The notes under the pieces were generated by a model, which saw only the letters and a program-made list of their open reading frames with translations, searched no databases and was not told where the DNA came from. A stretch of DNA of 47,834 nt, taken from IMG/VR virus record IMGVR_UViG_3300033141_003301, positions 1 to 47,834 of that record. One strand, written 5' to 3'. Origin of the DNA: a virus. Made by a program: the position numbers and the translations under genes. This document shows, piece by piece, positions 9,531 to 47,834 of the stretch; positions within the stretch are counted from its first letter, which is position 1, and each line of letters starts with the position of its first letter.

Positions 9531-11413
9531 TATTTTTTATAATTGAAAGCTACAATACTTCTGCCCTGATTAATACCTTTGCTGGTGATAGTTCTTGCAT
9601 TTATTTTTATATTTTTATTTACCCAAGTATTGTAATTATCTTCTGCTTTTTTAACTGCTTCACTTATCGTTGACTTGTCATAGGATTCAGCATTCATCTG
9701 TAAAGTATCTTCAATTCCGGAGCTTACCTGAAACTTCAAATCTTCAATTTGTTTCGCCGCCAACGAATTAATAAAACTGTTTACCCAATTCCGAGTGCGG
9801 TTAGAAATAGGAAAATCTTTATCAATTTGAAGTTCTGCCTTGACGCTATCTATACCCACTTGAATAGCTTCCAGCATAAAATTTATAAGCGTCCGTTTAT
9901 AAGTCGCTTCCTTCTTTGCCTTAATATCTTCGGCTTTTATTTTTCCGGCTTCCATTTGCCTTTCGTATTGACTAATTATATCTTCCTTTGTTTTCTCAAT
10001 GTAATCTTCCATGTAAGAAATAATTTTATTGTCAATATTATCCCAGTCTTTTTCAAGTGCCTGAAAATCAATCCGCTGTTCCCAGATAGTAAGCGGTCTT
10101 CCTGTTTGCGGATTTATTTTATAACTGTTCTGCATTTCAGATTCACTCGGTTCTTGACCGCCTTCTTCCTTTGATTCTTTTTCCTTTTCCTGTAATTGCG
10201 GCGGCACCGGTATTCCTAATATGTTAAAAGCCCACTCCCAATCTATCGGAGGAGCTGTACCTATCTTTGTCGCCTGTATAAATATCTCTTTCAATAAATC
10301 TATAATGCTTTCCGACAATTGACTATAATTCCATTCTGCCCTCGGTGCGTTACTGCCAAAATTATACAGCACTAATTGAGGTATAAGGTAGAGGTCAATA
10401 TATTCTTTGAGCGTGTCAAGAATAGCTTTTATTGAAAGAATAAAATTATTTGAGTGCTGTTTGCCAAGAGCATAGCTCCCAACTTTCTGTGCCTGAAAAA
10501 TTAAATCCGGGACAAAAATCGCTCTCGCTTTCATTGTATCCAAATGCTCATGTGCTTTTATGAAATGTCCAACATCTTTCTTGCTTTCCAGTAATTCAAC
10601 AAACCATTGCCTGTCTTTTTCACTCCACATATTTGAAGGTAAAGCGGCACTACCTCCGCTTCGTATATCTTTAACTGTTTGAAGCATAGTTTCAAGGTTG
10701 TCAACTTCCCTGCCGTCTTCTGTTTTAGTTTTTCCCGGTGGAGCGTATCCAATAGTAGGAGGACATGATAATGTCTCCATAAATACATTTTCAAAATCGT
10801 AATAATACCTGTCTATAAACCAATACCGATATGCTGGTCTTAATCTTGACCTGCCGTAATCGTTATCCCAGCGTTTATCGTGCGTAAATACAAAGCTCTT
10901 TTCCGGCGGTAGCTGAACATTTTCTCCTTCAAACATTTGTAATTCAATTCCGCCAAAGCTCCCGTCTTTTTCTTCTTTAAGAGTTATATACTCCGGGTCA
11001 AAAGGTAAAAGTTTTTTATATACTATCCCGTCTCCGTTTCTTTCAAAAATTTTCTCAAACGCCTGAAAACCAAAATTTAAAGCCAGCAAGCTGTCGGATA
11101 CAAATTTATTCCAAATCCTTTTTAGTGCTTTTTTAACAAATTCCCTGATATCTGAATTTTCACATTCAATATCCCACTCTACAGAATGGATAGGAGCTTT
11201 AACAATTGTAAGCGGTGCTATTACCCCAGCGTCGTTTTCCATTTTTTTATAAGTCTGTAAAGATATGTTATCCTCGTTGTAAACAAGTCCTTGAACAATA
11301 GAAGGCATTGTCCGCCCTGGACTCGCCACCCCTTTCTGTTTAAATAACTCTGCTTTGACTTCTTCGGCAATTTCCCTTTGCAAGTCTGCACGGCTTTTTA
11401 ATGAAAATAACAT
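9530..11413 (-). CDS. Portal protein (Mu gp29/DUF935 type) fused to MuF N-terminal half
   Basis: Residues 1 to about 400 match the DUF935 portal family: early KKMENDAGVIAPL, FGFQAFEKIFE near 114, LPPEKSFVFTHDKR, a YYYDFENVFMETLSCPPTIGY stretch near 205-225, and a long helical stem/crown region. A charged linker (KEKESKEEGGQEPSE) leads to a helical domain (about 430-627) ending in INQGRSIVAFNYKK. This resembles the N-terminal part of MuF proteins, and its Cys half is the next gene. Portal dodecamers form the DNA entry vertex. The start has AAAGGAG 9 nt upstream inside the end of the zinc-ribbon gene. Confidence 0.88.
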   Translation of the reverse strand: MLFSLKSRADLQREIAEEVKAELFKQKGVASPGRTMPSIVQGLVYNEDNISLQTYKKMENDAGVIAPLTIVKAPIHSVEWDIECENSDIREFVKKALKRIWNKFVSDSLLALNFGFQAFEKIFERNGDGIVYKKLLPFDPEYITLKEEKDGSFGGIELQMFEGENVQLPPEKSFVFTHDKRWDNDYGRSRLRPAYRYWFIDRYYYDFENVFMETLSCPPTIGYAPPGKTKTEDGREVDNLETMLQTVKDIRSGGSAALPSNMWSEKDRQWFVELLESKKDVGHFIKAHEHLDTMKARAIFVPDLIFQAQKVGSYALGKQHSNNFILSIKAILDTLKEYIDLYLIPQLVLYNFGSNAPRAEWNYSQLSESIIDLLKEIFIQATKIGTAPPIDWEWAFNILGIPVPPQLQEKEKESKEEGGQEPSESEMQNSYKINPQTGRPLTIWEQRIDFQALEKDWDNIDNKIISYMEDYIEKTKEDIISQYERQMEAGKIKAEDIKAKKEATYKRTLINFMLEAIQVGIDSVKAELQIDKDFPISNRTRNWVNSFINSLAAKQIEDLKFQVSSGIEDTLQMNAESYDKSTISEAVKKAEDNYNTWVNKNIKINARTITSKGINQGRSIVAFNYKK

Positions 11414-11644: not shown

Positions 11645-13348
11645 TTAATGTCGCTTCGTTGTTAACGGTAAACCCCCTCCGTAACTTTTAGACATACTGC
11701 CGGAAGTTTCTTTCGGGACACTCTTTGTTTCTTTTCCCATTGTTCCCGGCGTTGACTTCGGAGCTGATGATTCAACTGCAACTGCCTCCCTTCCAAACCA
11801 ATAACATACTCCAGCTACGGCGTCACTGATATCTTTACTTCCTTTCGGAGGATGGTCAACTTTTTTCCCTTTAATCAGTTCAAGTTCTTCAAGTTCACGA
11901 ATTAGATATTCAACGGGAGTTCTGGGTTGTCTTCCTTCAAGGTCTTCGTAATCGGCATAAGGAAATTCTATCAATCCCTGATATAAAAAAGATTTAAGCT
12001 GGTCATAAGGTTCAATAGTTCTGTCAACTGACAGCAATGATGTGCTGTATCCTTTCCTTTGAAGTATCTGCCGAGAGTCAACACTTTGCCAGCCGTCGTA
12101 GCTTACTTTACCTATTTGAAATTTACGCCTTGAAAGCTCGTAAATTCTTTCACGAACTTCACTAAATTGTATTTCACTCCCGGGTTTCGCTGTTAATCTT
12201 AAAAGCAAATCAATAATAACCTTGCCGTCCTCCCAATGTCCCATTGCAAATCCACAAGAGTCTTTTGACAATGCCAAGTCAACATGGATAACATAATTAC
12301 TTATACTTTTACACCAAAAATCAGGGTCAATATCTTCACTTCCTATTACTGGATTTTCTCTTTCTGATATTGCGTTTTTTATTTTGTCATAAAGTTTTAT
12401 GTAAGGCTCAAGAGATTTTGACGGCATTGCCATTAAATCCCTTTCAGCTTTTTCCGGATTTTTTTCAAAATCTTCTTTATGTTCAATAGGTATCATTAAT
12501 GATTTATATTTAAACTTTTCTCCGCTATAACTTTCAGGCGGCTTCATTTCCCATAGAGCTTTCCGGTCTTTATAAATTCGGTTATTCGGGTCAGCTTCCC
12601 GGAGCTTTCTTTCAATGTAGTCATTTACATACCGAGGAGAGCTTATAATAACCAGCTTGCCATAGTTGCGGAAATTTTCATTGCCTCTACTTCTTATTCT
12701 TCTGTTAATTGCATTATACATTTCTTCTGCATAATCTTTTCTTTCAGTAACAGTATAAAAAGCGGCTTCGTCCATAATTGCTGAAAAAACGTTCATACCA
12801 AGAGGAAATGTTTCAAGACTGCCTCCCGGGACTACTCTTACATTTTTTGGAAATCTTAACTCACTTTTAACATAAGGATTAGGTGGATAATATTTTTGAA
12901 ACCAAAACGAATTATCAATTTTATTTTTTATCTCTCCAAACACCACTCTCCTTGCCTGCGGTTCTTTCGTGCTTACGTTTATAAAATCAATTTCGCTTCC
13001 TTCTCCAAGTCCAAAATATTCCTGCGGATTTTTAAGAGCTAATACCCTCATTATTTCATAGCAAGCGATTATACTTGACTCATAGCTTTTTCCTGCCCCA
13101 ATACCTCTGCAAAGTACTGCTTCAGTCTTTCCACTTTTATAAAAGTTCTCAAGGTCGCAAATGATACTTTCCCATACATCATCTCTACCAAGATAATAAG
13201 GACTTGTAATAAATTCTCTTATGGGCGGAATCCTGTGTTCATATTCGGGGTTATCAACAATAAATCTTAACTCTTTTATAGCTTCGTCGCCTAAATCTGC
13301 TATTAATCCTTCAGCTTCCGCTTTAATTTGTGTCAGATTTTTGTTCAT
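11645..13348 (-). CDS. terL: Terminase large subunit
   Basis: Seen in the product (567 aa from this start) are a Walker A GIGAGKS near residues 82-88, a Walker B FSAIMDEAAF with the catalytic Asp-Glu near 193-194, a coupling motif region (VIISSPRYVND), and the RNase H-like nuclease start IHVDLALSKDSCGFAMGHW with the first metal Asp. The C-terminus is Ser/Gly/Lys-rich. It packages DNA through the portal. An alternative ATG at 13366 would add six residues; the MNKNL start at 13348 is preferred because it looks like a natural N-terminus. Either start overlaps the DpdA-like fusion gene upstream, so the two are co-translated. Confidence 0.92.
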   Translation of the reverse strand: MNKNLTQIKAEAEGLIADLGDEAIKELRFIVDNPEYEHRIPPIREFITSPYYLGRDDVWESIICDLENFYKSGKTEAVLCRGIGAGKSYESSIIACYEIMRVLALKNPQEYFGLGEGSEIDFINVSTKEPQARRVVFGEIKNKIDNSFWFQKYYPPNPYVKSELRFPKNVRVVPGGSLETFPLGMNVFSAIMDEAAFYTVTERKDYAEEMYNAINRRIRSRGNENFRNYGKLVIISSPRYVNDYIERKLREADPNNRIYKDRKALWEMKPPESYSGEKFKYKSLMIPIEHKEDFEKNPEKAERDLMAMPSKSLEPYIKLYDKIKNAISERENPVIGSEDIDPDFWCKSISNYVIHVDLALSKDSCGFAMGHWEDGKVIIDLLLRLTAKPGSEIQFSEVRERIYELSRRKFQIGKVSYDGWQSVDSRQILQRKGYSTSLLSVDRTIEPYDQLKSFLYQGLIEFPYADYEDLEGRQPRTPVEYLIRELEELELIKGKKVDHPPKGSKDISDAVAGVCYWFGREAVAVESSAPKSTPGTMGKETKSVPKETSGSMSKSYGGGLPLTTKRH

Positions 13349-14807
13349 TCTTTTCCAATACCTCATCTAATACGTCTAACACTCTCCTTTTATCTTTTTC
13401 AGGTAATTTGTTTATACGATTTGATATTACAGATATGATATTAGTAGTATTATTGTTGATTTGTATGTTCTTTGAAGGTCTTAATACATAATCTTTTAAT
13501 CGTAATCCTTCTTCAAGAGCAAACAACATCTGTGAAACATTTTTATCAGGTAATCCCCCGTCAAGAAGTTCAAAGTAATAGGCGACACTTAATCTTGCTC
13601 CTTTAATCTCTTGTAATCTATCCAGCCATTCAAGTATATTTTCTCTTGACCTGCCTACTACTGGGAATATGTTTTTAAACTCTTTTCTCATACCACATAC
13701 TATAGTCTCATTTTCTTTAGGCTCTACATATAGAATACACTTATCAGAAGCATAACAATTATTGCAATACAATGGAAAGTTCTGTGCATATTCTCCGGTT
13801 TTAAATCCAAACATGTTACCTTTCATCTTTTTTAAATGATTTCTCCGTCGCTTCTCCCTTAACTCTGGATTATTCTCAAGTATGATTTGTATCTTTCCTT
13901 TATTTTTTTCAAATCCATTCGGTTTTTTACCCTCATCCTTTCGGGGACTTTCCTCTTTCCAATACTTTTTACTGTGCATATCAATATACTTTTCAAATGC
14001 TTTCCAAGAATATATATTTAATTTATCAACTTCATTATAGTCATCATTACTGATTTTCTTATAATTTAAACCGTATTCTTCAATTTTTGATTTATATCTT
14101 AACCGTTGTTTTTTCTCGTCTTTCCCGAAATGTAACATCTTATTTCCGGTAAAGATATATGTAATTCCAAATCTACCCCCACTTAACCAAGAAGTACTGT
14201 CAACAGAGTAAAATGGTATTTTTAACATTTGCTTTTCTTTAGTCATAGCAAATCCATGAACTTTTGTGCCGTATTTCTTTGCTACATTAAGTTTGCTTAT
14301 ATAAGTTCCGTCAGGCAGGCTTCCTTCAATTCCAACATAATCAAACTCTTTACACATCTTCTCCCACTCTTTTTCTTTATTCGGAATACCTTTATTATGC
14401 CAAACGGGAATTATCGTTGCACCTGTTTCTATTAATTGCTTACGCCATTCAACCACCTTTTTATAATCAACCAATTCACCTATGTCCAGCTCTACAAAAT
14501 AATCTACATAATCCTTTACTTCTATAATCCAATTTATGTATTCTTTAACATATCCATCGTAATTAAGATTACTTTTACTTTGCTTCATTACAGCTACACC
14601 ATGTCCTATCCCTTCTTCACTAAAAAAAGTATGTGCTCCACTGTCTATAAGAATTGTAGCCCCTGAATCTTTTAGTTTTTTGAATTGACTTTTAACTTCC
14701 GTTATATTTTTATTTTTATATATAAAATAACTCCCAAGGACATTTTTTACTTTACAATCATATAAGACTTTATAATGCCCTTCTAACCCTGCAAAGAAAA
14801 TTTTCAT
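13323..14807 (-). CDS. DpdA/TGT-like guanine transglycosylase fused to zinc-containing terminase-small-like half
   Basis: Residues 1 to about 235 look like a TGT-type TIM barrel. DSGAHTFF at 55-62 corresponds to the DSGGFQ motif, ELDIGE at 106-111 to the second active-site Asp, and SVDSTSWLSGGRFG at 201-214 to the nucleophile Asp region. This is the arrangement of DpdA enzymes that exchange guanine for a 7-deazaguanine in phage DNA. After a Lys-rich linker (about 280-340) comes FKTGEYA, a four-Cys site (C348, C351, C357, C371) and a helical region with KGARLSVAYYFELLDGG and DKNVS. This resembles small proteins encoded just before terL. The gene overlaps terL downstream and the methyltransferase upstream by 4 nt. 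Transglycosylase fold: good support. Terminase-small role of the C-terminal half: inferred from motif style and position. No zinc site typical of bacterial TGT (CxCxxC-H) is seen in the barrel. Confidence 0.72.
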   Translation of the reverse strand: MKIFFAGLEGHYKVLYDCKVKNVLGSYFIYKNKNITEVKSQFKKLKDSGATILIDSGAHTFFSEEGIGHGVAVMKQSKSNLNYDGYVKEYINWIIEVKDYVDYFVELDIGELVDYKKVVEWRKQLIETGATIIPVWHNKGIPNKEKEWEKMCKEFDYVGIEGSLPDGTYISKLNVAKKYGTKVHGFAMTKEKQMLKIPFYSVDSTSWLSGGRFGITYIFTGNKMLHFGKDEKKQRLRYKSKIEEYGLNYKKISNDDYNEVDKLNIYSWKAFEKYIDMHSKKYWKEESPRKDEGKKPNGFEKNKGKIQIILENNPELREKRRRNHLKKMKGNMFGFKTGEYAQNFPLYCNNCYASDKCILYVEPKENETIVCGMRKEFKNIFPVVGRSRENILEWLDRLQEIKGARLSVAYYFELLDGGLPDKNVSQMLFALEEGLRLKDYVLRPSKNIQINNNTTNIISVISNRINKLPEKDKRRVLDVLDEVLEKNEQKSDTN

Positions 14808-15370
14808 AACTTTTTACCTGCAATTAATGTCCAGTAAAATTTTTTACTTTCTACTTCTGCCTGTTTTACATATTCTAACATACTAATATTCATGTTATTT
14901 AATAATCTTATTATGTGATTACTTTTAATATTAAAATGTTTATGATAAATATTGCTTTTTTTCTTTTCTTTCTCCGGGAACGATAACACAATTACACCTT
15001 TTTTTCTTAAAAGCTTTACTAATTGATTTAATGAACTTTCAATACTTTTTGATAAATGTTCAATTGTTTCCAAACATACAATAACATCAAACTTTGTTTT
15101 TACGTTATTAATAAAATTATTTTCAAAATATTTTATGTTTTCTTTTTTGTAATACTTTTGTGCATAAGCTATAGCTTCACTTGATATGTCATATCCTATT
15201 ACTTCTTTTGCCTTTTCTGATAATATAAAACTTCCATATCCACAACCACACCCTACATCAGCTACAATTTTATTAATACAATATTTTGAAGAAATATAAT
15301 ATCTCGTTAAATGGTCTTTAGGAATATTTTTTAAATCACATTCCATTACCCTTTCTCCTATTTTTTTCAT
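14804..15370 (-). CDS. Class I SAM-dependent methyltransferase, 188 aa
   Basis: Motif I VADVGCGCGYGSFIL is near residues 36-50, an acidic strand end GYDIS near 68-72 would bind the ribose, and FDVIVCLETIEHL near 103-115 is the usual motif IV/post-IV of small-molecule (UbiG/Methyltransf_11-like) enzymes. No DNA-methylase NPPY or DPPY motif is present. It sits with 4-nt overlaps between the DpdA-like fusion and the glycosyltransferase, inside the 7-deazaguanine operon. A role in methylating the modified base, its sugar or a precursor is inferred. An alternative is a function in host surface glycan modification together with the glycosyltransferase. Confidence 0.8.
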   Translation of the reverse strand: MKKIGERVMECDLKNIPKDHLTRYYISSKYCINKIVADVGCGCGYGSFILSEKAKEVIGYDISSEAIAYAQKYYKKENIKYFENNFINNVKTKFDVIVCLETIEHLSKSIESSLNQLVKLLRKKGVIVLSFPEKEKKKSNIYHKHFNIKSNHIIRLLNNMNISMLEYVKQAEVESKKFYWTLIAGKKL

Positions 15371-16470
15371 AGCTCAAACCCCATTGTTTTTAAATAGGTC
15401 TTCCAGCTATTATCATGTTTTCTTATTACTTCATCTTTCAATTTAAAATCAACATCTTTTTGCTCAAACAAATCTTTTAATTTCCTTTCTGCGTCATCTA
15501 TATCATTTTGTATATATAAATATCTTGGGTCATTTTTTAATTCATTTGGAAAATCTCTCCACATTGGATATAATACCTTACAATTAAATGTAAGAGCTTC
15601 AAGAAGTGTCCAACTTACCCAATCTTGATAAGCACAGTTAAACTGTATCTCTGCCTTACATAGTAGAGTATAATAATCAAGCTTATTTTTAGTGTCCACT
15701 ATCTCAAGATTTTTTATCTTACCTTGCATTTTTCTTAATCTTTCAATAACGCCACTATCATTTGATATACAATTTCTGGGATTTACCAACTTAAAATTTA
15801 TATCAGGACATCTTTCAACTAAATCTAAAAAAAAGTGAGGATTTTTTTCTTTGTCAAATCTTGAAGAAAACAATACAAAAGGTTCTTTCTGCTGCCATTT
15901 AAATCCCATTTCCTTTATTTGTTCAAGTAATTTTTTTGAATTATAAGGAAGACCTATACAATATATATTTTTACTATTGTATCCTGCACTTATACATTTG
16001 TCTTTCAATATAGCAGAAGTAACAAATATAAAGTCATAACCCCTTGATAGTCCTCTTTCAACATCACGTATCCAATATCTCATTGGAAAAGTAAAATCCC
16101 ATTCATCAACACTTTGTGCATGAAGAAAACAACCAACCTTGAATCTTATTCCCGTTATATCTCTTATGTAAAATAAACTTTCAACTCCAGGTTGCCAAAA
16201 ATCTTCTGTATATATTACATCTTCATCAGTAATATACCCGGTTTCCAGTAAAAATATTACTTTTTCAATCTGCGTCATTGCATAAATACTTCTTCCATAG
16301 GCGTCTAATACTACCCCAGCTTTTATCTCATTTCTATCTTTCTCCCCTTCAACTCTCATAAAATCAATTCCATATTTTCGGAAATTACTTTCTGCCCAGC
16401 CACCTTTACAGCTCATAAACCAAGTATATCGTTCTTTATAAGGTTCTAACGGTAAGTAAAATAATTTCAT
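15367..16470 (-). CDS. GT-B type glycosyltransferase, 367 aa
   Basis: The C-terminal half shows the GT4-like donor-binding layout: FVLFSSRFDKEKNPHFFLDL around residues 218-237, then IVDTKNKLDYYTLLCKAEI, and WTLLEALTFNCKVLYP around 300-315 with the Glu usual in retaining GT-B enzymes. The N-terminal half is a degenerate Rossmann domain with FLHAQSVDEWDF. No signal peptide or membrane anchor is visible, so it acts in the cytoplasm. It overlaps both neighbours by 4 nt. In this context it could glycosylate a hypermodified DNA base, as phage glucosyltransferases do for hydroxymethyl-cytosine. That role is inferred. Confidence 0.78.
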   Translation of the reverse strand: MKLFYLPLEPYKERYTWFMSCKGGWAESNFRKYGIDFMRVEGEKDRNEIKAGVVLDAYGRSIYAMTQIEKVIFLLETGYITDEDVIYTEDFWQPGVESLFYIRDITGIRFKVGCFLHAQSVDEWDFTFPMRYWIRDVERGLSRGYDFIFVTSAILKDKCISAGYNSKNIYCIGLPYNSKKLLEQIKEMGFKWQQKEPFVLFSSRFDKEKNPHFFLDLVERCPDINFKLVNPRNCISNDSGVIERLRKMQGKIKNLEIVDTKNKLDYYTLLCKAEIQFNCAYQDWVSWTLLEALTFNCKVLYPMWRDFPNELKNDPRYLYIQNDIDDAERKLKDLFEQKDVDFKLKDEVIRKHDNSWKTYLKTMGFEL

Positions 16471-16805
16471 TTTGTTACCTCAGCTCCATTTTCATTGTCT
16501 TCTAAAACTTTTACAGAAGTGCAGTTAAATTGTTTGAGTATCTTTTCTGCTATATCCTCGCAACTCATATTTCCAAATTTTAAATATTGATAAGCATAAC
16601 TTTTATTGACACCATATTTGATTATTAAATAATTTTTAATAGCTTTTTTAAAATTAATTATTTCTATTTCCCGGTTATTATGACTTACTTCTTTTTTTAC
16701 TATTATTCTAAAAATATGTCTATGTAAATTTTTTAAATAATTTTCTGCCTCTGGGTATTTATGAACACCTTCAATATCTAATTTTACAATTATATACCTT
16801 TGCAT
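16467..16805 (-). CDS. QueD/PTPS-like paralogue lacking the catalytic Cys
   Basis: The 112-residue protein can be laid over the canonical QueD at 17918-18265. His15, His28 and His30 (LHRH) fall at the same residue numbers as the three zinc ligands. SCEDIAEKIL matches the TSENLACYL helix, and VKVLED matches VRVYES at the end. QueD's catalytic Cys24 is Leu here, and its Asp-His pair (residues 65-66) is missing. So it likely binds zinc and a pterin- or deazaguanine-like ligand but cannot do the same chemistry. From memory, a QueD-related decarboxylase of CDG (DpdL) has been proposed in phages; this gene is a candidate for that type of role. It overlaps glycosyltransferase and folE. Confidence 0.65.
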   Translation of the reverse strand: MQRYIIVKLDIEGVHKYPEAENYLKNLHRHIFRIIVKKEVSHNNREIEIINFKKAIKNYLIIKYGVNKSYAYQYLKFGNMSCEDIAEKILKQFNCTSVKVLEDNENGAEVTK

Positions 16806-17299
16806 AACCTAAAAAATTCTTCTCTTACTTTCATTTTATCAAATACACCTCTTATCGCACTCGTAACCATTACAGAATTTTCTTTTTTCACCCCTCGCAT
16901 TATCATACACAAATGTTGACCTTCAACGACACAAATACAACCTTCTGGCTTCATTTCTTTTTCAAGATAACTTACTATTTCCTCGGTCATACGTTCTTGT
17001 ATCTGCGGTTTTGAAGCAAACTTATCAACTAATCTCGCTAACTTACTTATTCCACATATTTTTTTCCCGGGTATATATCCAATATGAGCTTTTCCAAAAA
17101 AAGGTAATAGGTGATGTGAACAAAAGGAATAAAAATTTATATCTTTGAGTATTATCATTTGATTATATCCAGGGTTTTTAAATGTAGTAAATTTAAAGTT
17201 TTTCTTATCTTTCATTTCATTAAAAAAATTTTTAATCCTTGTCGGGGTATTTCTAATTTCTTCTTCGTTAAACAGTTTATTGCTTATTTCTATTTTCAT
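16790..17299 (-). CDS. folE: GTP cyclohydrolase I (type IA)
   Basis: The 169-residue enzyme has all family motifs. FCSHHLLPFFG has zinc ligands Cys60 and His63, ISKLARLVDKFASKPQIQERMT is at 84-105, and CVVEGQHLCMIMRG holds the third zinc ligand Cys131. It converts GTP to dihydroneopterin triphosphate, the first step of the 7-deazaguanine pathway. It is slightly short at the N-terminus, which is usual for phage versions. It overlaps queE by 4 nt and the QueD-like gene by 16 nt. A second, unrelated GTP cyclohydrolase is encoded at 41693-43573. Confidence 0.93.
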   Translation of the reverse strand: MKIEISNKLFNEEEIRNTPTRIKNFFNEMKDKKNFKFTTFKNPGYNQMIILKDINFYSFCSHHLLPFFGKAHIGYIPGKKICGISKLARLVDKFASKPQIQERMTEEIVSYLEKEMKPEGCICVVEGQHLCMIMRGVKKENSVMVTSAIRGVFDKMKVREEFFRLCKGI

Positions 17300-17955
17300 T
17301 GTATATTTAGTTCTTTGTGTAATTGGTAACCGTATTTAACTCGTAATCCATTCTGAATTATTGCATTCGCTACTTCATTATTAAGTCTTGTTGTCTGAAA
17401 ATATACGTCAATCCATTCTGGTATATCACCTAACTTACTAATAGCAAATGGCAAGTCTGTTTCTATATCTATAATAGGAAATTTAATCCAAACATTCTTA
17501 TAATTTAACAAAGTAAGATTTTTTTTATTAAAACTTTTTTCCTCTCCAGAACTGGGAGTTTTCCAATCAATAGCATATTCAATAAATCTTCCTCTGCAAT
17601 TTACTAACCCTTGAAATATACTAATACTTCCATTTGTTTCAATAGTTATCGGAATACTAATTTTATTTAATAACTTATTCGTATATTTACGGTTACTTTC
17701 TTCAAGCGGTTCTCCACCTGTAATTGTAACCCTCTGTGCAGGAGATTCTTTTAATCTTCTTAAAACCTCATCAACACTATACATCGTTTTTCTTTTGTGA
17801 CTGTATTTTGTATCACACCATTTACAATTAAGATTGCAACCTGAAAAGCGTATAAAAAAAGTAAGCTCTCCTTGATACCTGCCTTCACCTTCAAGAGAAG
17901 TAAAACACTCAATTATATTAGTTTTTTGCTTCAGCATAACTTTTAGGACTTTCAT
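17296..17955 (-). CDS. queE: 7-carboxy-7-deazaguanine synthase (radical SAM)
   Basis: The 219-residue protein has SLEGEGRYQG near residues 20-29, the CX3CX2C iron-sulphur motif of the QueE family at Cys40, Cys44 and Cys47 (GCNLNCKWCDT), and the SAM-binding TGGEPLEE at 79-86. It converts 6-carboxytetrahydropterin to CDG. An inner ATG at 17937 would shorten it by six residues; the ATG at 17955 is kept because a TAAGAG site lies close upstream. It overlaps queD by 38 nt. Confidence 0.92.
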   Translation of the reverse strand: MKVLKVMLKQKTNIIECFTSLEGEGRYQGELTFFIRFSGCNLNCKWCDTKYSHKRKTMYSVDEVLRRLKESPAQRVTITGGEPLEESNRKYTNKLLNKISIPITIETNGSISIFQGLVNCRGRFIEYAIDWKTPSSGEEKSFNKKNLTLLNYKNVWIKFPIIDIETDLPFAISKLGDIPEWIDVYFQTTRLNNEVANAIIQNGLRVKYGYQLHKELNIQ

Positions 17956-18265
17956 AAACTCTTACTTTAAATTTCAAATCAGGATTTTCTGAATGAAATT
18001 TACTTACTAAATAGCAAGCAAGATTTTCACTGGTAGGATTAAAATTACATATTTCATTCAATAGTTTATGGTCAAATTTTTTTACTTCTTTTTTAAGATT
18101 TGTAAAGTCCCATAGTATTCCATTTTTCTTTACTTGCCTTGAATTGCCCTTAATTTCTACAATTACTTTCCAAGTATGCCCATGTAGATTTGCACATTTA
18201 CCTTCATAGTTTTCAAGTGAGTGTGCGGCGTCAAAAGTTGCCTCTGTTTTTAGTTTAATATTCAT
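17918..18265 (-). CDS. queD: 6-carboxytetrahydropterin synthase
   Basis: Seen in 115 residues: DAAHS (zinc His15), GKCANLHGHTW (catalytic Cys24, zinc His28 and His30), ILWDFTNLK, a catalytic FDH pair at 64-66, PTSENLA at 77-83 and the substrate-anchoring Glu105 in VYES. It converts dihydroneopterin triphosphate to 6-carboxytetrahydropterin. It is the first enzyme gene of the 7-deazaguanine operon in transcription order, starting inside the HNH gene (11-nt overlap). Confidence 0.92.
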   Translation of the reverse strand: MNIKLKTEATFDAAHSLENYEGKCANLHGHTWKVIVEIKGNSRQVKKNGILWDFTNLKKEVKKFDHKLLNEICNFNPTSENLACYLVSKFHSENPDLKFKVRVYESPKSYAEAKN

Positions 18266-19433: not shown

Positions 19434-20214
19434 TTATCTCCTTATTTTGCCCTCCTTTAATTCTTCAGCTAAATTAATAAATTTTTTATATTCCTCTGCG
19501 ATAGCTGATTCCCCATGTTTTTTAAATATCCGCCTGTAATGTTTTTTCCATTCTTCTATCGTATGCACTTCACAGCCTATTTTTATTTGTTTAGGAGTGA
19601 TAATTATTCTATATTTCAGTCCAGCTATTATTATCGGCTGTTTTGTAAATTTTTCCCCGTTATACCACTTTGCCCCTGTAATGTCTACCTCTGCAAGGTC
19701 TGCCCCTGCAAGATTCGCCCCTTCAAGTCTCGCCCCTGCAAGGTCTGCCTCTGCAAAGCTCGCCCCTGTAAGATTCGCCCCTGCAAAGCTTGCCCTTGTA
19801 AGATTCGCCCCTGCAAGTCTCGCCCCTGCAAGGTTCGCCCCTGCAAAGGTCTGCCTCTGCAAGGTCTGCCTCTGCAAAGCTCGCCCCTGTAAGATTCGCC
19901 CTTGCAAAGCTCGCCCCTGCAAGGCTCGCCCCTGCAAGGTCTGCCCCTGCAAGTCTCGCCCCTGCAAAGCTCGCCTTTGCAAGGTCTGCCCCTGCAAAGC
20001 TTGCCCCTTCAAGTCTCGCCCTTGCAAAGCTCGCCCCTGCAAGGTCTGCCCCTGCAAGTCTCGCCCCTGCAAGGTCTGCCTCTGCAAGGTTTGCTTTGTT
20101 ATCCTCTACGCAGTCCTTTATACTTTCATACTCTCCGCATAAAATAATATCTCCCGTGAAATAGTTTTTTATTTTAATTATCATTTTTTGCTCCCTTACC
20201 GGTTCTTTATTCAT
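19434..20214 (-). CDS. Pentapeptide-repeat protein interrupted by a +1 frameshift
   Basis: The N-terminal 40 residues ([10 protein letters not shown] start, then [16 protein letters not shown]) are followed by about 28 pentapeptide units of the A(D/N/S)LAG type. The C-terminal 75 residues ([13 protein letters not shown], then [15 protein letters not shown]) resemble ends of other phage pentapeptide proteins. One extra A in the run at 19845-19847 shifts the frame: upstream the good repeat frame stops being used, and downstream it continues in another frame to 19434. Without that base the gene encodes 259 residues. With it, translation from 20214 continues as CRGES-type repeats and ends at 19723 (163 aa). 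Pentapeptide solenoids can mimic DNA or form scaffolds. The shift could be a sequencing slip, a real knockout or a phase switch. Confidence 0.75.
19680..20095 (-). repeat. Tandem 15-bp repeats coding for pentapeptides
   Basis: About 28 imperfect copies of a 15-bp unit (minus strand GCAGGGGCGAGCTTT-like) fill this stretch. The unit lacks stop codons in all six frames, so long artificial frames appear on both strands. One 16-bp unit, with an extra A at 19845-19847, breaks the period. Confidence 0.9.
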
Positions 20215-32730: not shown

Positions 32731-33372
32731 TTACTTTTTGTATACAATATGAACTGTTTCATCTTTACGGCCAAATATCGGATTACAATCCTCACATACT
32801 ACAACAGCATTTTCTTTTACAGACTCTATTGATAAATCATTTGTTATTTTAACCATGCTATCACCACTGATGTTAGCTATAATATCGCCATTTATATTAC
32901 TTACTGTGCCTCCTCTAATATTATTAACAGTGCCGGCCCAAATATTTCCTACCATGCCAGCGCTAATATTATTTATGGTGCCGCCCCTAATATCGTTTAT
33001 GGCACCTCCGCAGATATCGTGTACTATACCGCCCTCAATATAATTTACTAAACCTCCCCAGATAAAATTTACGGTACCTCCACTGATGTTGTTTACGGTA
33101 CCTCCACTGATATTATTTACAATACCGCCACTAATATTATTTATGGTGCCGCCCCAGATGTTACTTACAGTGCCGCCCCTAATATCGTTTATGGCACCGC
33201 CATTGATATTGTTTATGTTACCATCTATCAACTCAACTTTTGCGTTTTTTGGAGTCCATTCTATATCTTCCATTTTTCTTAGATTCAGCTTTATTATACC
33301 GTCAAAATCCTGAAGATTTTCAAATTCCGCTATACTTGTGATGATTTTTTCTTGTTTCGTTACTTTTGTCAT
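32731..33372 (-). CDS. Octapeptide-repeat solenoid protein, 213 aa
   Basis: The start at 33372 has AGGAGG 5 nt upstream; a TTG at 33399 is rejected. About 15 tandem 8-residue units of the form GGTVNNIS (residues about 51-171) dominate the protein, with hydrophobic residues at fixed places and Gly-Gly turns. This predicts a right-handed beta helix. The ends are ordinary: an N-terminal NLRKMEDIEW segment and a C-terminal VVCEDCNPIFGRKDETVHIVYKK with one CxxC. Function unknown; such solenoids mimic DNA, bind sugars or form fibres. A promoter-like element lies just upstream. Confidence 0.7.
   Translation of the reverse strand: MTKVTKQEKIITSIAEFENLQDFDGIIKLNLRKMEDIEWTPKNAKVELIDGNINNINGGAINDIRGGTVSNIWGGTINNISGGIVNNISGGTVNNISGGTVNFIWGGLVNYIEGGIVHDICGGAINDIRGGTINNISAGMVGNIWAGTVNNIRGGTVSNINGDIIANISGDSMVKITNDLSIESVKENAVVVCEDCNPIFGRKDETVHIVYKK
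32863..33222 (-). repeat. Tandem 24-bp repeats coding for octapeptides
   Basis: Fifteen imperfect 24-bp units, each coding for one 8-residue beta-helix rung. The third-position variation between units suggests selection on the protein, not recent slippage. Confidence 0.85.
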
Positions 33373-33402
33373 GGCTTCCTCCTTTTTTCCTTCCTTCAAT
33401 AT

Positions 33403-41070: not shown

Positions 41071-41699
41071 TTTCCCCAAAGTCCCTTTTTCCAAATGATA
41101 GCTATATTAGAATAAACAGAAAGATCCCTGTAGGCATCTTCAACAGATTCGTATTCAGCTTCTTTAGGTTCATGTATTTCTTTAAATTTTATCTCAACTT
41201 CCCACCCCTCAAGAGATAAAATCCTACAAACTTTATCTAAAATTCTAGATATAATCCCAACTATGCCCGACGCTGCTATATTTTGTGATGAATAGTCTCT
41301 GTTTTTTCTTCGATGTGTAGAAGACATTTCTTGGACTAATTTATCGAACTCAGCAAACTGTAACGGATAAGGATCCTCTGGTATTTCCTCTACTTTATAA
41401 TAAATTGGTTTTTTAAAAGTTTCCGCCAACTCTTTCTCTCTACAAGCCCCTTCAGACCTTTCCCAACCAGGCAACAATAATAAAGCATCACATTTTTTAA
41501 CGATTTCAAAATCGCATTGTAAAATTGTTTCAATATCAAAATCACCCTCCTTACACCAACCTTGTGTCATAGTATGTGGACAAACAGGATAATGTCCTGC
41601 TCTTATTATATCAAAAGATGTTTCTTTAGCCTTTTGTATATTTTCTTGTATTTCTTTTTTAGTTGAAGCCCTATAAGGACCTGCTACATAAATTAACAT
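41067..41699 (-). CDS. DUF4406-like/nucleoside-deoxyribosyltransferase-like domain fused to DUF1599-like domain
   Basis: The first 105 residues (LIYVAGPYRASTKKEIQENI, HYPVCPHTMTQGW, CDALLLLPGWERSEGACREKELA) match DUF4406/NDT-fold proteins. The Glu of SEGACRE could be the catalytic residue of deoxyribosyltransferases. The second half (EMSSTHRRKNRDYSSQ, GIVGIISRILDKVCRI, EDAYRDLSVYSNIAIIW) matches DUF1599, which from memory is named a nucleotide-modification-associated domain. Both halves suggest handling of free nucleotides in a base-modification pathway, in line with the neighbouring FolE2 and DpdA genes. Confidence 0.75.
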   Translation of the reverse strand: MLIYVAGPYRASTKKEIQENIQKAKETSFDIIRAGHYPVCPHTMTQGWCKEGDFDIETILQCDFEIVKKCDALLLLPGWERSEGACREKELAETFKKPIYYKVEEIPEDPYPLQFAEFDKLVQEMSSTHRRKNRDYSSQNIAASGIVGIISRILDKVCRILSLEGWEVEIKFKEIHEPKEAEYESVEDAYRDLSVYSNIAIIWKKGLWGK

Positions 41700-43573
41700 A
41701 AATTTCTCCCTGCTGATATTATTGCAACAGCATTATGCTTATGTATTGATTCATAATGTTCTACCACAATTACATAATCATTTATTTTATTATCCAACCA
41801 AGTATCAAATTTAATTGCTAAATCACGTGCCACATCTTCTACAAATTTGGGATTAGCATAAGCGTACTCCGTCACATACTTTTCATCATCTCTCTTTAAT
41901 GTAGAATAAATAGAACAACTTACATTATTTTCCACAAGATTAATTATTTCTTTAATGTCTAAAAATTTACCCTCTTTAATTTCTACTGTTACTTTCGCAA
42001 CACTTCTTTGATTGTGAGCTGATGCATTAGATATACTTTTACTATTATGTACAATATAAGGAACAGTTAATTCTGCATTACTTGTTTCCGCATCGTAAAC
42101 AATTTTAGGAATTTTCTTAGTATCAATTACATCGGTTATAGGGAGAAAAAAGAACTTTTCATTTTCTTTAATTTTGGGATTTTTATTTTTAGGTAAATCT
42201 GGTAACAACCCTAAAAAATATAAAAAAGCTTGAGGTAAAGTAATTCTATATAATGGTAAGGCATTAACTTTTCGAGCAATATAATTATTATTAACATTTT
42301 TCGATATACTTAAAACAAACCCAAGCTTTAATCCAAGTAATTGTAATTGTAACGCACCTATTTTAGACACTGTATTTATGTGCTGAAGTTTTCTTGTTGT
42401 ATTATGAGTACCATCCCCGGCATACCACCCCAAAATAAAATTTTTTACTATATTTTTATTTTTTGATTCCATAATACATGAAGGTACTTTTCTTGTTTTA
42501 CTTAAACCATTAAATTCTTTTTTTAAAACGTCGTATAAAACTACATTACTAATTGACACTATTCGTGCGTTCTTCTTTTTGTATTCCCTCACCTTTATAT
42601 TTTCACACCCCCAAGACTCTAAAATATTAACTACTTTTTCCTGTAAACTCTTTTCATGATACCCAAAAGTAAGATGAATGCCTTTATTGGTAAAACTTCC
42701 TTCTGCAAATAATAATCCTAATAAAAATGCATCGTCCTCATTTAATTGTAAATTAAAATTAATCTTTTTATTCATGTGGTGTGTTCTTAATTCAGAAGAA
42801 AGATCTAAATACGAAAAGTCCTTTTCATTGAATAAATTATTTTTCTTAGGTATTATTACATATTTATCGTTAAAATTACCTTGTAAATCTTCAATAGAAA
42901 CCCATTTAAAAGTATTTAAGTCTGAGGTCACTCTTACTTTATGTCCTTCAGTTAATTCTAAAGGTAAAAACCCTACAGTATTTAACTGAAAAACTTTTTT
43001 ATTATTCTTATACTTAAATACTTTATTTATATTTTGTTCTCCAAATGTAGTACAGTTCTTATTCACCTTATCAAAACAAATTACATCGTTTTCTAAAAAT
43101 AAATAATCATTTTTTGTAAAACTACACGGACAAAGAGATGTATAAGGAACTTTCACCGTTAAAAAAACTTTAGAACTATCATTATCAGCCCTTCCCTCCA
43201 TTACACATTCATAAGACATATAGCTTGATATCCCAGAAACTGGAGCCGTCTTAGATAAAAAATAAGGGAACACTAATTTAATATAACTGTCTTCGCTACC
43301 TAATTTTTCTTTTGTTTTTTTAAGTAAATATGTAATAATCCCATGGCCTATATCCTCCTTTATAGCTTCATGCAACAATTCAGAAAAACGACTCATATTA
43401 ACTCCTCTAATTTTTTCACTTAAAGAAGTATAAATAGAAACCCTGGCCACAGTTTTTGTAGGCTCATTATCATTCCCTTGTAAAATGGATATAGGTACTT
43501 CAATATCTCTAATACCTACCTTTTGAATTTTTTTATTCCTATGATCTTGTTCATTCTGTATATCTCTTAACAT
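41693..43573 (-). CDS. folE2: GTP cyclohydrolase type IB (FolE2/MptA) with intein
   Basis: Extein 1 is residues 1-150 (IRDIEVPISI, SKTAPVSGISSYMSYEC, KVPYTSLCPC) and extein 2 is 511-626 (SKSISNASAHNQRS, then YAYANPKFVEDVARDLA and HKHNAVAIISAG). Joined, they give a 266-residue enzyme, normal for the family. Spliced, the catalytic Cys of LCPC and the metal-binding His of AHNQRS are 12 residues apart, the family spacing. The enzyme makes dihydroneopterin-type products from GTP by a fold unrelated to FolE. GGAGG precedes the start; it overlaps the DpdA gene by 23 nt. Confidence 0.9.
   Translation of the reverse strand: MLRDIQNEQDHRNKKIQKVGIRDIEVPISILQGNDNEPTKTVARVSIYTSLSEKIRGVNMSRFSELLHEAIKEDIGHGIITYLLKKTKEKLGSEDSYIKLVFPYFLSKTAPVSGISSYMSYECVMEGRADNDSSKVFLTVKVPYTSLCPCSFTKNDYLFLENDVICFDKVNKNCTTFGEQNINKVFKYKNNKKVFQLNTVGFLPLELTEGHKVRVTSDLNTFKWVSIEDLQGNFNDKYVIIPKKNNLFNEKDFSYLDLSSELRTHHMNKKINFNLQLNEDDAFLLGLLFAEGSFTNKGIHLTFGYHEKSLQEKVVNILESWGCENIKVREYKKKNARIVSISNVVLYDVLKKEFNGLSKTRKVPSCIMESKNKNIVKNFILGWYAGDGTHNTTRKLQHINTVSKIGALQLQLLGLKLGFVLSISKNVNNNYIARKVNALPLYRITLPQAFLYFLGLLPDLPKNKNPKIKENEKFFFLPITDVIDTKKIPKIVYDAETSNAELTVPYIVHNSKSISNASAHNQRSVAKVTVEIKEGKFLDIKEIINLVENNVSCSIYSTLKRDDEKYVTEYAYANPKFVEDVARDLAIKFDTWLDNKINDYVIVVEHYESIHKHNAVAIISAGRNLC
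42044..43123 (-). other. Intein in FolE2, 360 aa, LAGLIDADG type
   Basis: Residues 151-510 of the precursor. It begins with Ser, not Cys (SFTKNDYLFLEND), and ends PYIVHN before extein Ser511. Inside are two LAGLIDADG-like motifs, FLLGLLFAEG near 283-292 and FILGWYAGDG near 379-388, so a homing endonuclease domain is present. A Cys start would leave 11 residues between active-site Cys and His, one too few, which supports Ser1. The intein lies in the most conserved motif of the host enzyme. Confidence 0.88.
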
Positions 43574-44408
43574 CCTCTTCCTCCATACTTTCTTGTTCTA
43601 CTTCCTTTTGTAATGAATTTAAATAATCACCGTCTGGGCGGCACCAACTCTTTAAAATGCCTAAATTAAACATAGCTCTTCGTATTTCCTCTTCAGTTAA
43701 ACTGTTATCAAAATCAACTTTGATTTTCTTTTTTTCGGGGACACCTTTTATAAGATCATACATAATTCCCAACTTTGCCTGTTGTATAGGGGAAGACGTA
43801 TCAACAGAGTCTATCCATGGATAATAATTCTGATATTTCATTTCTATAGGATTAGAAGCTCCTAACAAATGTACTTTCTTCAAAATATTCCCCTTAAAAG
43901 TATGATGCAATCTTTGAGTAATCTTTAATCTACTTAAAAGAAAAGTTTCTGTTTCTGATTCTCTACAAACAAAATATGTATGAAATGGAATACAAATTCG
44001 ATAAATATGCTTATTATGATATAGCTCTATAAAATATGATATAAATTCTTCTATAGTTTCTCCGTGGCAAACAGCAACTAACTTTGGTCTATAATTGGAA
44101 TATAATTCCAAACACTCTCCTATACCTTTATATAACTTATCTCTACTGGCCTCAGTATCTCCCATAACATCTGGCAAAACTATTTCATGAGCACCAACTT
44201 CGTAACCGGCTTCGAATAATTGACTTATTGTTACTGGCTCATCTAACTCAAAAGCTGAATTGTCTAAAATTTTATAATTACTACTTTGTTTATAAAAATT
44301 TGTATATTCAGTACTTTTTTCTATCATATGTGTAAGAACAAAATCATAATCCATAAACTTATGAAAAACTTCTAAATTAGGAACAGGAATCTCACATGAT
44401 AATTTCAT
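43551..44408 (-). CDS. DpdA-like DNA guanine transglycosylase, 285 aa
   Basis: The TGT-like barrel shows LDNSAFELDEP (Asp49), EIVLPDVMGD (Asp80), VAVCHGETIEEF, RICIPFHT, VHLLGASNPIEM and WIDSVDTSSPI (Asp203, nucleophile region). This layout is that of phage DpdA proteins which insert 7-deazaguanines into DNA. It is encoded with 4-nt and 23-nt overlaps between a P-loop kinase and FolE2. It differs clearly from the DpdA-like half at 13323-14807. Confidence 0.82.
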   Translation of the reverse strand: MKLSCEIPVPNLEVFHKFMDYDFVLTHMIEKSTEYTNFYKQSSNYKILDNSAFELDEPVTISQLFEAGYEVGAHEIVLPDVMGDTEASRDKLYKGIGECLELYSNYRPKLVAVCHGETIEEFISYFIELYHNKHIYRICIPFHTYFVCRESETETFLLSRLKITQRLHHTFKGNILKKVHLLGASNPIEMKYQNYYPWIDSVDTSSPIQQAKLGIMYDLIKGVPEKKKIKVDFDNSLTEEEIRRAMFNLGILKSWCRPDGDYLNSLQKEVEQESMEEEDVKRYTE

Positions 44409-44950
44409 AATACAACCTCTTTTAATTGTTTAATAGTCGTCTTACAAACATGTACCCTATGATGAATATCGCCTGTTAATGTAACTAAATTAAATTTACT
44501 GTCAAAAAGAGCAATTACATGTTGTATATATTTATCTATATCTAATTGAAATGATTTATCCATATCTCTAACTCCATCAGCGACCAATCCAAATTCTACT
44601 GGTGTGTAAAAAACAATATCATACTGTGGTGCAAGTTCAAATAATGTTTTAAAAGCCTCAAACATTACTTCACTGGATATTTTACCTTCGCGTTCCAAAT
44701 AAAGTGTATAAGAAAAGACATCGAATATCCCTCTATCTGAAATAAAATTATCTTTCATTATTATTTCTTTCTGAAATTGTAATAATTTAAGTTGTACCCC
44801 ATCGTCCCCATTTTTATTAATTTTATTTTTTGGAAGCCTTCTTGTTATCTCACTTATAAATTCTATATCTCTGAACTCTTTAACTTTTTTAAGTTCTTTT
44901 AATATAGTTGTTTTACCAGTACTATGACTGCCTGAAAATGTTATCTTCAT
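44405..44950 (-). CDS. P-loop NTPase/nucleotide kinase-like (AAA_28), 181 aa
   Basis: Walker A FSGSHSTGKTTILKEL is at residues 5-20, ISDRGIFDVFSYT near 69-81 resembles the substrate-binding DR motif of NadR/deoxynucleoside-kinase-like AAA_28 proteins, and YDIVFYTPVEF near 114-124 is the Walker B region. It could phosphorylate a (modified) nucleoside or nucleotide. The substrate is not evident. It overlaps DpdA by 4 nt. Confidence 0.75.
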   Translation of the reverse strand: MKITFSGSHSTGKTTILKELKKVKEFRDIEFISEITRRLPKNKINKNGDDGVQLKLLQFQKEIIMKDNFISDRGIFDVFSYTLYLEREGKISSEVMFEAFKTLFELAPQYDIVFYTPVEFGLVADGVRDMDKSFQLDIDKYIQHVIALFDSKFNLVTLTGDIHHRVHVCKTTIKQLKEVVL

Positions 44951-45194: not shown

Positions 45195-47834
45195 TCAATG
45201 CCTCTTTTTTGACCAATAACCTTTTTTCTTTCTTCTGTTGCTCGTGTACGTCTTTTGAAGATTTCCAAGTTTTAGGTAATCCAAATTTATCCCTCTTCCA
45301 CTCATCCCGATCTACGTCTGTTATATCATGCCTAGGCTTATCTAAATCCCTCCAACTTTTCCCTATTCCAATATCTACACCTAAAGGTACTTTAAATTTA
45401 ATACCTAAATGCTCTGGAATGGGATTTAGCATAGCTTTTTGAATTATTTCTATTTCCTCAAAAAGATTCTCAATAGGAATTTCAAAATATATAGCATCAT
45501 GAACATTCATTAAAATACGAGCTCCTAATTTTTTCTCTTTTATTATTTTATGAATCTTTATCATAGCTAAACAAGTAATATCACTTGCAGCTGATTGTAT
45601 AGGAAAATTTTGACTCTGCCTTAATATAGCCTTCTGTACAGGAGAAAGAAAAGATTTAGTGAATTTGTCCCGCATCTTATCTTCTTCAAAAAAATCAATA
45701 GCCGGACGACTCCTAACTACGCCTTCAACATCAATATCTGGTAATCTCCTAACACGACCAAAAAAACTTTCTAAACGACCATCTCTACATACCTTTGTAT
45801 GTTGCTCTTCTATCCATTGTCTTATTTTGGGATACCCATTAAAAAACTTTTCAACAAAAGCGTCTGCCTCCTCTAAACTTATACCTAATTGCTCATGCAA
45901 ACTAAAAGCACTCCGCCCATACAACATGCCAAAACCTATCGATTTTGCAATTGTTCTTTCTTTACTACCCTCTTCACTATTATATGCTTCAATAATATCT
46001 TGATAAGGTATATTGAAAGCACGGCTAGCTATAGAAGCATGAATATCCTCACCCTCTTCAAAAACCTTTATAAGATTTTCATCGTCACAATAATGCGCCA
46101 AGACTCTAAATTCTGCCTGCGCATAGTCAATTCCTACAAAAGCATAACCTGGCCGGGCAACAAATAATTCTTCTATAATTGATTTTTTAGGTATGTTCTG
46201 TAAATTTGGATTATTACTACTAAGGCGTCCTGTGTTATGAGATATTATACCATTAGTTATAAAAGTACTATCTACAGGTACAGTTACATCATAAGTTAGC
46301 TCGCTACTTGACTGCGTAACTTTTTTTACCTGGACACACTGAAATTTGCCGAATTGTTTTACATGTTGTTGACTTACCTTTTTAATCTGTGACAATTTTT
46401 TATGCACTTTTAAATGCTTTTTCGTAATTGGTTTACACTCATTTATAAAATTTAAAGCACTGTTATCCATTAATTGAACTCTATACATAAAATTATCGGC
46501 ATCATGTCCTGTCCTTGTGTATTTTTTTATATTTCTATATTTTTTCATTTTACCAAATAATGCGTGATACCCCCTATTTAACAATAATTGTTGTACTTCT
46601 TTCATTAAAACTTTGTATGAACTAACATATCTAACTAATACTTTTTTTCCTTTCAAATTCCACTTAAATCTTCCTATAGATGCATCTGTCATTAGTCCCC
46701 TAAGAAATTCCTTAATTATGCACCAAGGAGCTTTTCTAATAATATGTGGAATATCCTTATTTATAGAATCATACTTTATGCCAAAATTATTTTGAAACCA
46801 TAAAATTAATTCCTTAGAAACTATTTGTACACACGGTGTATTACCATCTGTTCTAAATATCGTATTTATATTAAACAACTTTTTTAACAACGCTATAATA
46901 TCTGTTTGTACATTTTTATCAGTATTAATTATAGATAATTTATATATTCCATACTTTTCTACGATAGTTATATTACCTTCAGCAACAATATAACCCAGTA
47001 ATCGAGCTAATTCAGGTGTTAATTTATTTGGTAATTTTATTTTTTTAGCGTTAGTTTTTCTCACATAAAAACTGTCGGATAATTTAACATCTTGGCCCCA
47101 CACATTGGCTCCGATTCTTGTACAAACATAATCCCCCCTTTGTATATCCCCTAGAGATTTCCATATCATTTTATTTCCTTGTAAAACTCTAATTGGGTGA
47201 TTTTTTGTTCCTCTAAGTTCTATTCCAAGAACAGTTTCTATTTTATACAAATCTGCTGGTTCACTTTTATAAATATGAGATGTTTTTACCTCTGCGTTCT
47301 CTCCTAATAATGAGTATTCAAATGGTATAAATTTTCCTTCTGGAAGAGAATCTATATCATATATTTCATTAAAATATTCTAACCCCCTACTTGTCCATAA
47401 TGTTGTATCAGCTGTGACACAAGCCGTACCATGTAATAAATAAGAAGTGTGTATAGTGTTATTTTTTGAAAGTAACTTACGCATACCCATAATATATGTT
47501 GAATATAATTTACTATGTTTTCTGTAATCTAATAATTTTTCTATAAAAGGATGCTCATCTTTCATTTGTTCTAAAACACCCTCTGCCGTAGATGGAGCAC
47601 CTGAAGCTGTCTCTCCTCTAGACCTAAGGCCAAATTTCCCAAATAATAACTCTTTCAATTGTTTAGTAGAACGTGGATTTAAAATATGTTTCCCTTCTCC
47701 TTTACATTCAGGGCATTTTTTCATTTTAATTTTGCCTTGAATTTGCCCAGAACCCTTACAATTAGTACACTCTTCAGTCCCTGCTATTTCTTGCATTTCT
47801 TTTTCGAGTTTTATTAATAATTTCTCTTCTTCTT
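45160..47834 (-). CDS. polA: DNA polymerase I family (PolA), intein-containing, 5' end outside window
   Basis: The frame is open to the right edge, so the N-terminal part (exonuclease domain, if any) is missing. Numbering from the Met at 47796: a two-knuckle zinc module (Cys10, 13, 28, 31), the thumb start LNPRSTKQLKELLF, intein 126-521, then TGRLSSNNPNLQNIP at 522-536, motif A VGIDYAQAEFR (Asp557), motif B RTIAKSIGFGMLYG (Arg614, Lys618, Phe622, Tyr626) and motif C MNVHDAIYF (Asp767). The usual VHDE is VHDA, and the O-helix has GFG instead of NFG. A Lys/Glu-rich tail of about 60 residues is added. It is the replicative polymerase of the phage. Confidence 0.93.
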   Translation of the reverse strand, partial: EEEKLLIKLEKEMQEIAGTEECTNCKGSGQIQGKIKMKKCPECKGEGKHILNPRSTKQLKELLFGKFGLRSRGETASGAPSTAEGVLEQMKDEHPFIEKLLDYRKHSKLYSTYIMGMRKLLSKNNTIHTSYLLHGTACVTADTTLWTSRGLEYFNEIYDIDSLPEGKFIPFEYSLLGENAEVKTSHIYKSEPADLYKIETVLGIELRGTKNHPIRVLQGNKMIWKSLGDIQRGDYVCTRIGANVWGQDVKLSDSFYVRKTNAKKIKLPNKLTPELARLLGYIVAEGNITIVEKYGIYKLSIINTDKNVQTDIIALLKKLFNINTIFRTDGNTPCVQIVSKELILWFQNNFGIKYDSINKDIPHIIRKAPWCIIKEFLRGLMTDASIGRFKWNLKGKKVLVRYVSSYKVLMKEVQQLLLNRGYHALFGKMKKYRNIKKYTRTGHDADNFMYRVQLMDNSALNFINECKPITKKHLKVHKKLSQIKKVSQQHVKQFGKFQCVQVKKVTQSSSELTYDVTVPVDSTFITNGIISHNTGRLSSNNPNLQNIPKKSIIEELFVARPGYAFVGIDYAQAEFRVLAHYCDDENLIKVFEEGEDIHASIASRAFNIPYQDIIEAYNSEEGSKERTIAKSIGFGMLYGRSAFSLHEQLGISLEEADAFVEKFFNGYPKIRQWIEEQHTKVCRDGRLESFFGRVRRLPDIDVEGVVRSRPAIDFFEEDKMRDKFTKSFLSPVQKAILRQSQNFPIQSAASDITCLAMIKIHKIIKEKKLGARILMNVHDAIYFEIPIENLFEEIEIIQKAMLNPIPEHLGIKFKVPLGVDIGIGKSWRDLDKPRHDITDVDRDEWKRDKFGLPKTWKSSKDVHEQQKKEKRLLVKKEALNEENYGEEGPF
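46234..47421 (-). other. Intein in PolA, 396 aa, LAGLIDADG type
   Basis: Residues 126-521: starts CVTADTTLWTSRGLEY (Cys1, block A), block B GTKNHPIRVL near 196-205, LAGLIDADG motifs LARLLGYIVAEG near 263-274 and IIKEFLRGLMTDAS near 360-373, and ends with VPVDSTFITNGIISHN before extein Thr522. It interrupts HGTA|TGRLSS, the conserved template-binding motif at the start of the polymerase palm. Confidence 0.9.

Follow-up and report, generated by a model that had tools for sequence, protein, structure and literature searches.

The question raised by this locus is how a phage folE2 gene that carries a long in-frame insert within its active-site motif could still yield a working enzyme. The window, that is the whole 47,834-base stretch of DNA analysed, is one virus record, and its portal, terminase large subunit and capsid protein E genes identify it as a tailed phage (Table 1). 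One of its minus-strand frames (41693-43573) runs for 626 codons uninterrupted by stops. Residues 1-152 of its product, together with those from 511 onward, match FolE2 (PF02649, E 1.6e-74); the precursor also matches NF010200 at E 1.9e-74, exceeding the curated cut-off, as well as the solved FolE2s 2r5r, 8g6c and 3d2o. Judging from the sequence, a mobile class-1 LAGLIDADG intein very probably splices from the FolE2 active site to leave a normal enzyme for the 7-deazaguanine pathway.

An intein between LCPC and SKSIS had been proposed in the initial annotation, and the extein comparison bears this out. The insert occupies precursor residues 151-510, exactly 360 aa. The comparison set comprised 75 viral loci with an uninterrupted CPCSK...AHNQR motif, both halves being alignable in 72, and in every one of these (72/72) zero extra bases separate the end of CPC from the start of SK. 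This zero-gap joining bounds the insert exactly from Ser1 to Asn360, followed by Ser+1. The predicted spliced protein (150 + 116 = 266 aa) brings C148 and H160 to a spacing of 12 residues; we take these to be the equivalents of Cys147 (active-site) and His159 (metal) of Neisseria gonorrhoeae FolE2, with which the alignments to solved FolE2s agree. C148 lies three residues ahead of the intein and is at least 95% conserved among 60 distinct viral FolE2s, a set whose search pattern itself favoured this Cys. All 30 columns conserved to this degree (30/30, including C148, H160 and E219) are kept in the joined exteins, a test of extein integrity that is blind to a recently inserted dead intein. The CPCSKxIS...AHNQR motif and the conserved acidic residues are also present after joining. 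Thus, the earlier description of an insert that parts the active-site Cys, in the N-extein, from the metal His, in the C-extein, is accurate, and the lengths given for insert and joined exteins agree with those computed here from the sequence.

The neighbouring residue also has to be considered, as Cys is the commonest first residue of inteins and Cys150 immediately precedes Ser1. An intein beginning at Cys150 (as Cys1) would, however, leave the product LCP-SKSIS with a Cys-His distance of 11 residues, and would remove the second Cys of CPCSK. This Cys is at least 95% conserved in relatives (partly by selection, since the control pattern for that set required CPC) and is found in the solved FolE2s 2r5r and 8g6c. 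Zero-gap joining favours Ser, and block A puts Ser1 in register with the Cys1 of other inteins. Cys150 was discarded as residue 1 because it disrupts the conserved CPCSK motif, and we regard this junction as extremely improbable. The claim that only a Ser start fits therefore stands, as it restores both the CPCSK motif and the distance between C148 and H160. Inteins typically insert near active sites, at a mean of 8.3 A to active-site residues (PMC3359363), and the position of the FolE2 insert alone is therefore unsurprising.

Table 1. Coordinates of the FolE2 intein, its exteins and other features of the window.
Feature	Coordinates	Strand	Basis
FolE2 (GTP cyclohydrolase IB) precursor with intein	41693..43573	minus	626 aa open frame, PF02649, NF010200, solved FolE2s
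N-extein, 150 aa, ends ...TSLCPC	43124..43573	minus	alignment with 72 viral FolE2s that lack an insert
C148, FolE2 active-site cysteine, first Cys of CPC	43130..43132	minus	conservation and analogy with NgFolE2
Class-1 intein, 360 aa, Ser1...His359-Asn360, Ser+1	42044..43123	minus	zero-gap joining, intein alignment/profile
Ser1, initiating nucleophile	43121..43123	minus	same alignment column as Cys1 in other phage inteins
Lys37-Tyr38, replacing motif NX [R/K]-His	43010..43015	minus	no His ahead of His61
His61, motif N3 (block B) in TEGH	42941..42943	minus	invariant with Thr58 in alignment of phage inteins
LAGLIDADG motif 1, LLGLLFAEG, acidic Glu141	42698..42724	minus	intein alignment, profile
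LAGLIDADG motif 2, GWYAGDG, acidic Asp237	42410..42430	minus	domain match, intein alignment, profile
His359-Asn360, intein C-terminus (Asn cyclises)	42044..42049	minus	zero-gap joining, intein alignment
C-extein, 116 aa, starts SKSISNASAHNQRS (Ser+1)	41696..42043	minus	alignments to solved and viral FolE2s
H160 of spliced FolE2, metal-ligand His of AHNQR	42014..42016	minus	conservation alignment
Second intein, in DNA polymerase I, Cys1...His-Asn/Thr+1, 396 aa	46234..47421	minus	PF14890 4.3e-13; TIGR01445/TIGR01443
Second GTP cyclohydrolase, FolE IA type, uninterrupted	16790..17299	minus	PF01227 3.8e-56; solved GTP cyclohydrolase I 1wm9 3.3e-40
QueE-like radical SAM enzyme	17296..17955	minus	phrog_2076 3.2e-32
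QueD-like 6-pyruvoyl-tetrahydropterin synthase	17918..18265	minus	PF01242 7.4e-29
DpdA-like DNA deazaguanine transglycosylase	13323..14807	minus	phrog_887 'queuine tRNA-ribosyltransferase' 1.9e-46
Phage capsid protein E	4318-5550
Mu-type portal	9530-11413
Terminase large subunit	11645-13366

The identity of the insert is carried by its resemblance to other inteins. It matches LAGLIDADG_3 (PF14528) at E 1.3e-8, while the Intein_splicing profile gives E 0.006 with 16.8 bits, below the cut-off of 35.8, and TIGR01445 yields barely any score. Against a profile built from five other phage inteins the insert reaches 79 bits, whereas the highest-scoring of 2000 shuffles stays at about 11; the intein reading is not a product of chance. 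The block B (N3) TxxH is T58-E-G-H61, and Asp344 and Asn360 also align with the five phage inteins. The insert matches the PolA intein of this same phage (BLASTP E 6e-5, from N3 through the first LAGLIDADG motif), aligns with NrdE and helicase inteins of Bacillus, Staphylococcus and Enterococcus phages, and has archaeal VMA and RNA polymerase inteins among its sequence matches. VMA inteins are also the best Foldseek matches of its model, which is of low confidence; the AlphaFold (AF2) models from one and from four sequences reach pLDDT 38 and 49, too poor for active-site placement, and a Hint (horseshoe) fold is what the sequence would predict. A class-3 intein was discarded on the lack of a block-F Cys, the only cysteines being residues 16, 24, 173 and 216, with none in residues 335-360. 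On these sequence features the insert of the 41693-43573 frame is a full-length class-1 LAGLIDADG intein, which would be expected to splice and home.

In layout, in its two LAGLIDADG motifs and in its splicing blocks, the FolE2 intein is like the phage LAGLIDADG inteins of NrdE (SPbeta bnrdE), Herelleviridae helicase and PolA, although these have Cys1, occupy other sites and share only ~21-28% identity with it. The nearest solved relatives are the archaeal VMA inteins TliVMA and PhoVMA (PDB 7qsu, 7qst, 7qss), the match covering the endonuclease part (E 0.0013); unlike the FolE2 intein, these are Cys1 in the wild type and their host is the V-ATPase catalytic subunit. Phage inteins of thymidylate synthase, NrdE and helicase sit in conserved active-site motifs of DNA or nucleotide enzymes (PMC5050341, PMC3322345), and the FolE2 intein resembles them in lying within such a motif. 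Among viral sequences, the closest relative found (25-28% identity) is the Cys1 LAGLIDADG intein at L090:3674-4786, which interrupts a prohead-protease-like gene on a viral contig of 302 kb. The DNA polymerase I intein of the window (46234-47421, minus strand) also carries LAGLIDADG motifs.

We infer splicing, homing, an oxyester route and a metabolic role for FolE2. In this model, the intein and its LAGLIDADG homing endonuclease form a mobile class-1 element in the most conserved stretch of the phage folE2, and an inactive 626-residue precursor would be made first, with Cys148 and the metal-ligand His 372 residues apart. Ser1 would attack the Cys150-Ser1 peptide bond, giving an oxyester by an N-O shift, the N-extein would pass to Ser+1 to form a branched ester, and cyclisation of Asn360 would free the 360-residue intein. 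The exteins would then be joined as LCPC-SKSIS into a normal 266-residue FolE2, which would supply the 7-deazaguanine pathway of the phage. The endonuclease would target the empty CPC/SK site and spread the intein into the folE2 of related phages. At the level of sequence the junctions are established, the exact family sequence is restored, enzyme and intein both keep their catalytic residues and the relatives are uninterrupted. Counting against the mechanism are the absence of the motif-NX His, the Intein_splicing score below cut-off and the poor AlphaFold models. No relative with the same FolE2 intein was found, so conservation offers no evidence for the insert.

The route itself has precedents. 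The Ser1 inteins PolB16 OarG, Psp-GBD Pol, Mvu-M7 Pol-3, Mja TFIIB and PI-TkoII are class-1 inteins with Ser1/Ser+1 or Ser1/Thr+1, and they have in common with the FolE2 intein Ser1, the penultimate His, the terminal Asn and the N3 histidine; because of these shared residues the same oxyester route is expected here. The FolE2 intein differs from them in having Lys-Tyr and no motif-NX histidine, in its non-catalytic Cys at the four positions above, and in its host, which is FolE2 rather than a polymerase or TFIIB. With Ser1 and Ser+1 it is as in the cysteine-independent Ser1 subgroup. The motif-NX histidine is absent, with no His anywhere before His61. Lys37-Tyr38 was found by counting 23 residues back from the N3 His, which we take to be the NX-N3 spacing of Pol inteins as in the T. 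litoralis sequence; the spacing in the Mja TFIIB chain is 22 residues.

Ser1 had been called uncommon, and the database record supports this, as InBase holds 58 inteins, in 16 alleles, with Ser1 and Ser/Thr+1 (PMC10189870). Nearly all of these have a motif-NX histidine with Arg/Lys just before it, and in the three Ser1 inteins put to the test splicing depended critically on this histidine (PMC10189870). Given its absence from the FolE2 intein, Ser1 may be activated otherwise, or the intein may splice slowly, weakly or only under certain conditions. Tyr38 or another residue may help Ser1, or a Cys1 ancestor may have given rise to Ser1 with slow splicing.

A less favourable outcome would be a weak or dead element, a Cys1-type intein whose residue 1 drifted to Ser and which splices slowly or not at all, tolerated as a second GTP cyclohydrolase covers the step. 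The missing motif-NX His is in keeping with this, as is the presence of Lys-Tyr-Lys at the NX place in the related Cys1 intein of the prohead-protease-like gene (L090), and the C1S mutation inactivates several Cys1 inteins (PMC10189870). The same genome also encodes a complete FolE IA. Nevertheless, the remaining splicing residues are all intact, the retention of 30/30 near-invariant FolE2 positions is unlike a long-dead enzyme, and two of the 58 known Ser1 inteins with Ser/Thr+1 depart from the rule, carrying Tyr or Asn in place of the NX histidine (PMC10189870). We therefore consider a weak or dead intein unlikely.

Whether the phage depends on splicing is a separate matter from whether FolE2 does. 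The uninterrupted FolE IA gene lies beside QueE and QueD genes, in a set that also includes a DpdA-like gene, and phages use such gene sets to place 7-deazaguanines in DNA (PMC6884629). QueC was not detected in the window, a record that is possibly a fragment, and the phage might use 7-carboxy-7-deazaguanine or host QueC. As queD or queE often lies within a few kb of other viral FolE2 genes, FolE2 probably also feeds the 7-deazaguanine pathway. The initial annotation held enzyme activity to be wholly dependent on splicing; for the FolE2 polypeptide this is a strong inference, but it does not extend to the pathway, since an uninterrupted FolE IA encoded beside QueE and QueD means that the GTP cyclohydrolase step need not rely on FolE2 splicing. 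A methyltransferase gene and a glycosyltransferase-like gene also lie within the DpdA/FolE IA/QueE/QueD set (13323-18265, minus strand).

The pairing of the two enzymes raises a further scenario, in which splicing responds to metal or redox state through the CPC ahead of Ser1, so that active FolE2, a metal-promiscuous enzyme, is released only when it is useful. C148-P-C150, with its metal-ligand Cys, directly adjoins Ser1, and FolE2 coexists in this phage with a zinc-type FolE IA. In Cupriavidus, each member of such a FolE IA/FolE2 pair serves as backup for the other, depending on metal conditions (PMC10882993), and splicing of a mycobacterial DnaB intein is inhibited by zinc on its catalytic Cys (PMC7360933). 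The nucleophiles here, however, are serines, which are poor zinc binders, no conserved intein-bearing relative points to selection for the insert, and the CPC is needed by FolE2 itself, with homing into a conserved site explaining the position. Conditional splicing is thus quite unlikely in our view. Its fuller form, in which a Ser1 intein free of the NX His stands behind a metal-binding CPC so that metal or redox gates a metal-promiscuous FolE2 beside a zinc enzyme, we also hold to be distinctly improbable. Splicing of a mobile intein remains our preferred reading.

The initial annotation knew of no intein at this site, and searches of viral contigs, species genomes and the literature found none. 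A strict DNA pattern, N-[S/T/C]-K-x-I...AHNQR, recovered zero intein-bearing FolE2s at the CPC/SK site from 2.9 million viral contigs and 84,980 species genomes; as positive controls it recovered the window, and the matching uninterrupted pattern recovered the 75 viral loci. A relaxed pattern gave zero viral matches and six in genomes, all of which were discarded on translation as chance matches. No close relatives of the whole precursor were found in viral contigs. With tblastn, the intein had no matches in phages at 1e-3 or in plasmids at 1e-2, and thresholds up to 10 gave only weak matches to phage inteins. The literature searched for FolE, GTP cyclohydrolase or queuosine-linked inteins, which included few subscription papers, contained no FolE, FolE2 or GTP cyclohydrolase intein. 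The element is therefore of a known kind, a class-1 intein, but its insertion site is new, its Ser1 chemistry is uncommon and one signature of its subgroup is missing.

FolE2 thereby joins the proteins known to host inteins. The insertion divides a metal active site, and such a position would give a clean all-or-none splicing reporter through GTP cyclohydrolase complementation. Cysteine-independent inteins are in demand as tools. The phage also carries two GTP cyclohydrolases, one zinc-type and one metal-promiscuous, alongside a DNA-modification pathway.

Other genes of the window also deserve mention. Upstream of FolE2, the gene at 43551-44408 (minus strand) matches only PHROGs of unknown function, phrog_19058 being the best; its product appears TGT/DpdA-like by eye, and a TGT profile gave no match to it. 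Homologues of this gene and of the AAA gene at 44405-44950 lie near FolE2 in two viral loci (L056 and L004). Pentapeptide-like repeats occur at 19434-20214 (minus strand), where frames overlap and more than one is open, including on the opposite strand. Finally, 32731-33399 (minus strand) encodes repeated GGxxNxIxGG units of a beta-solenoid-like protein.
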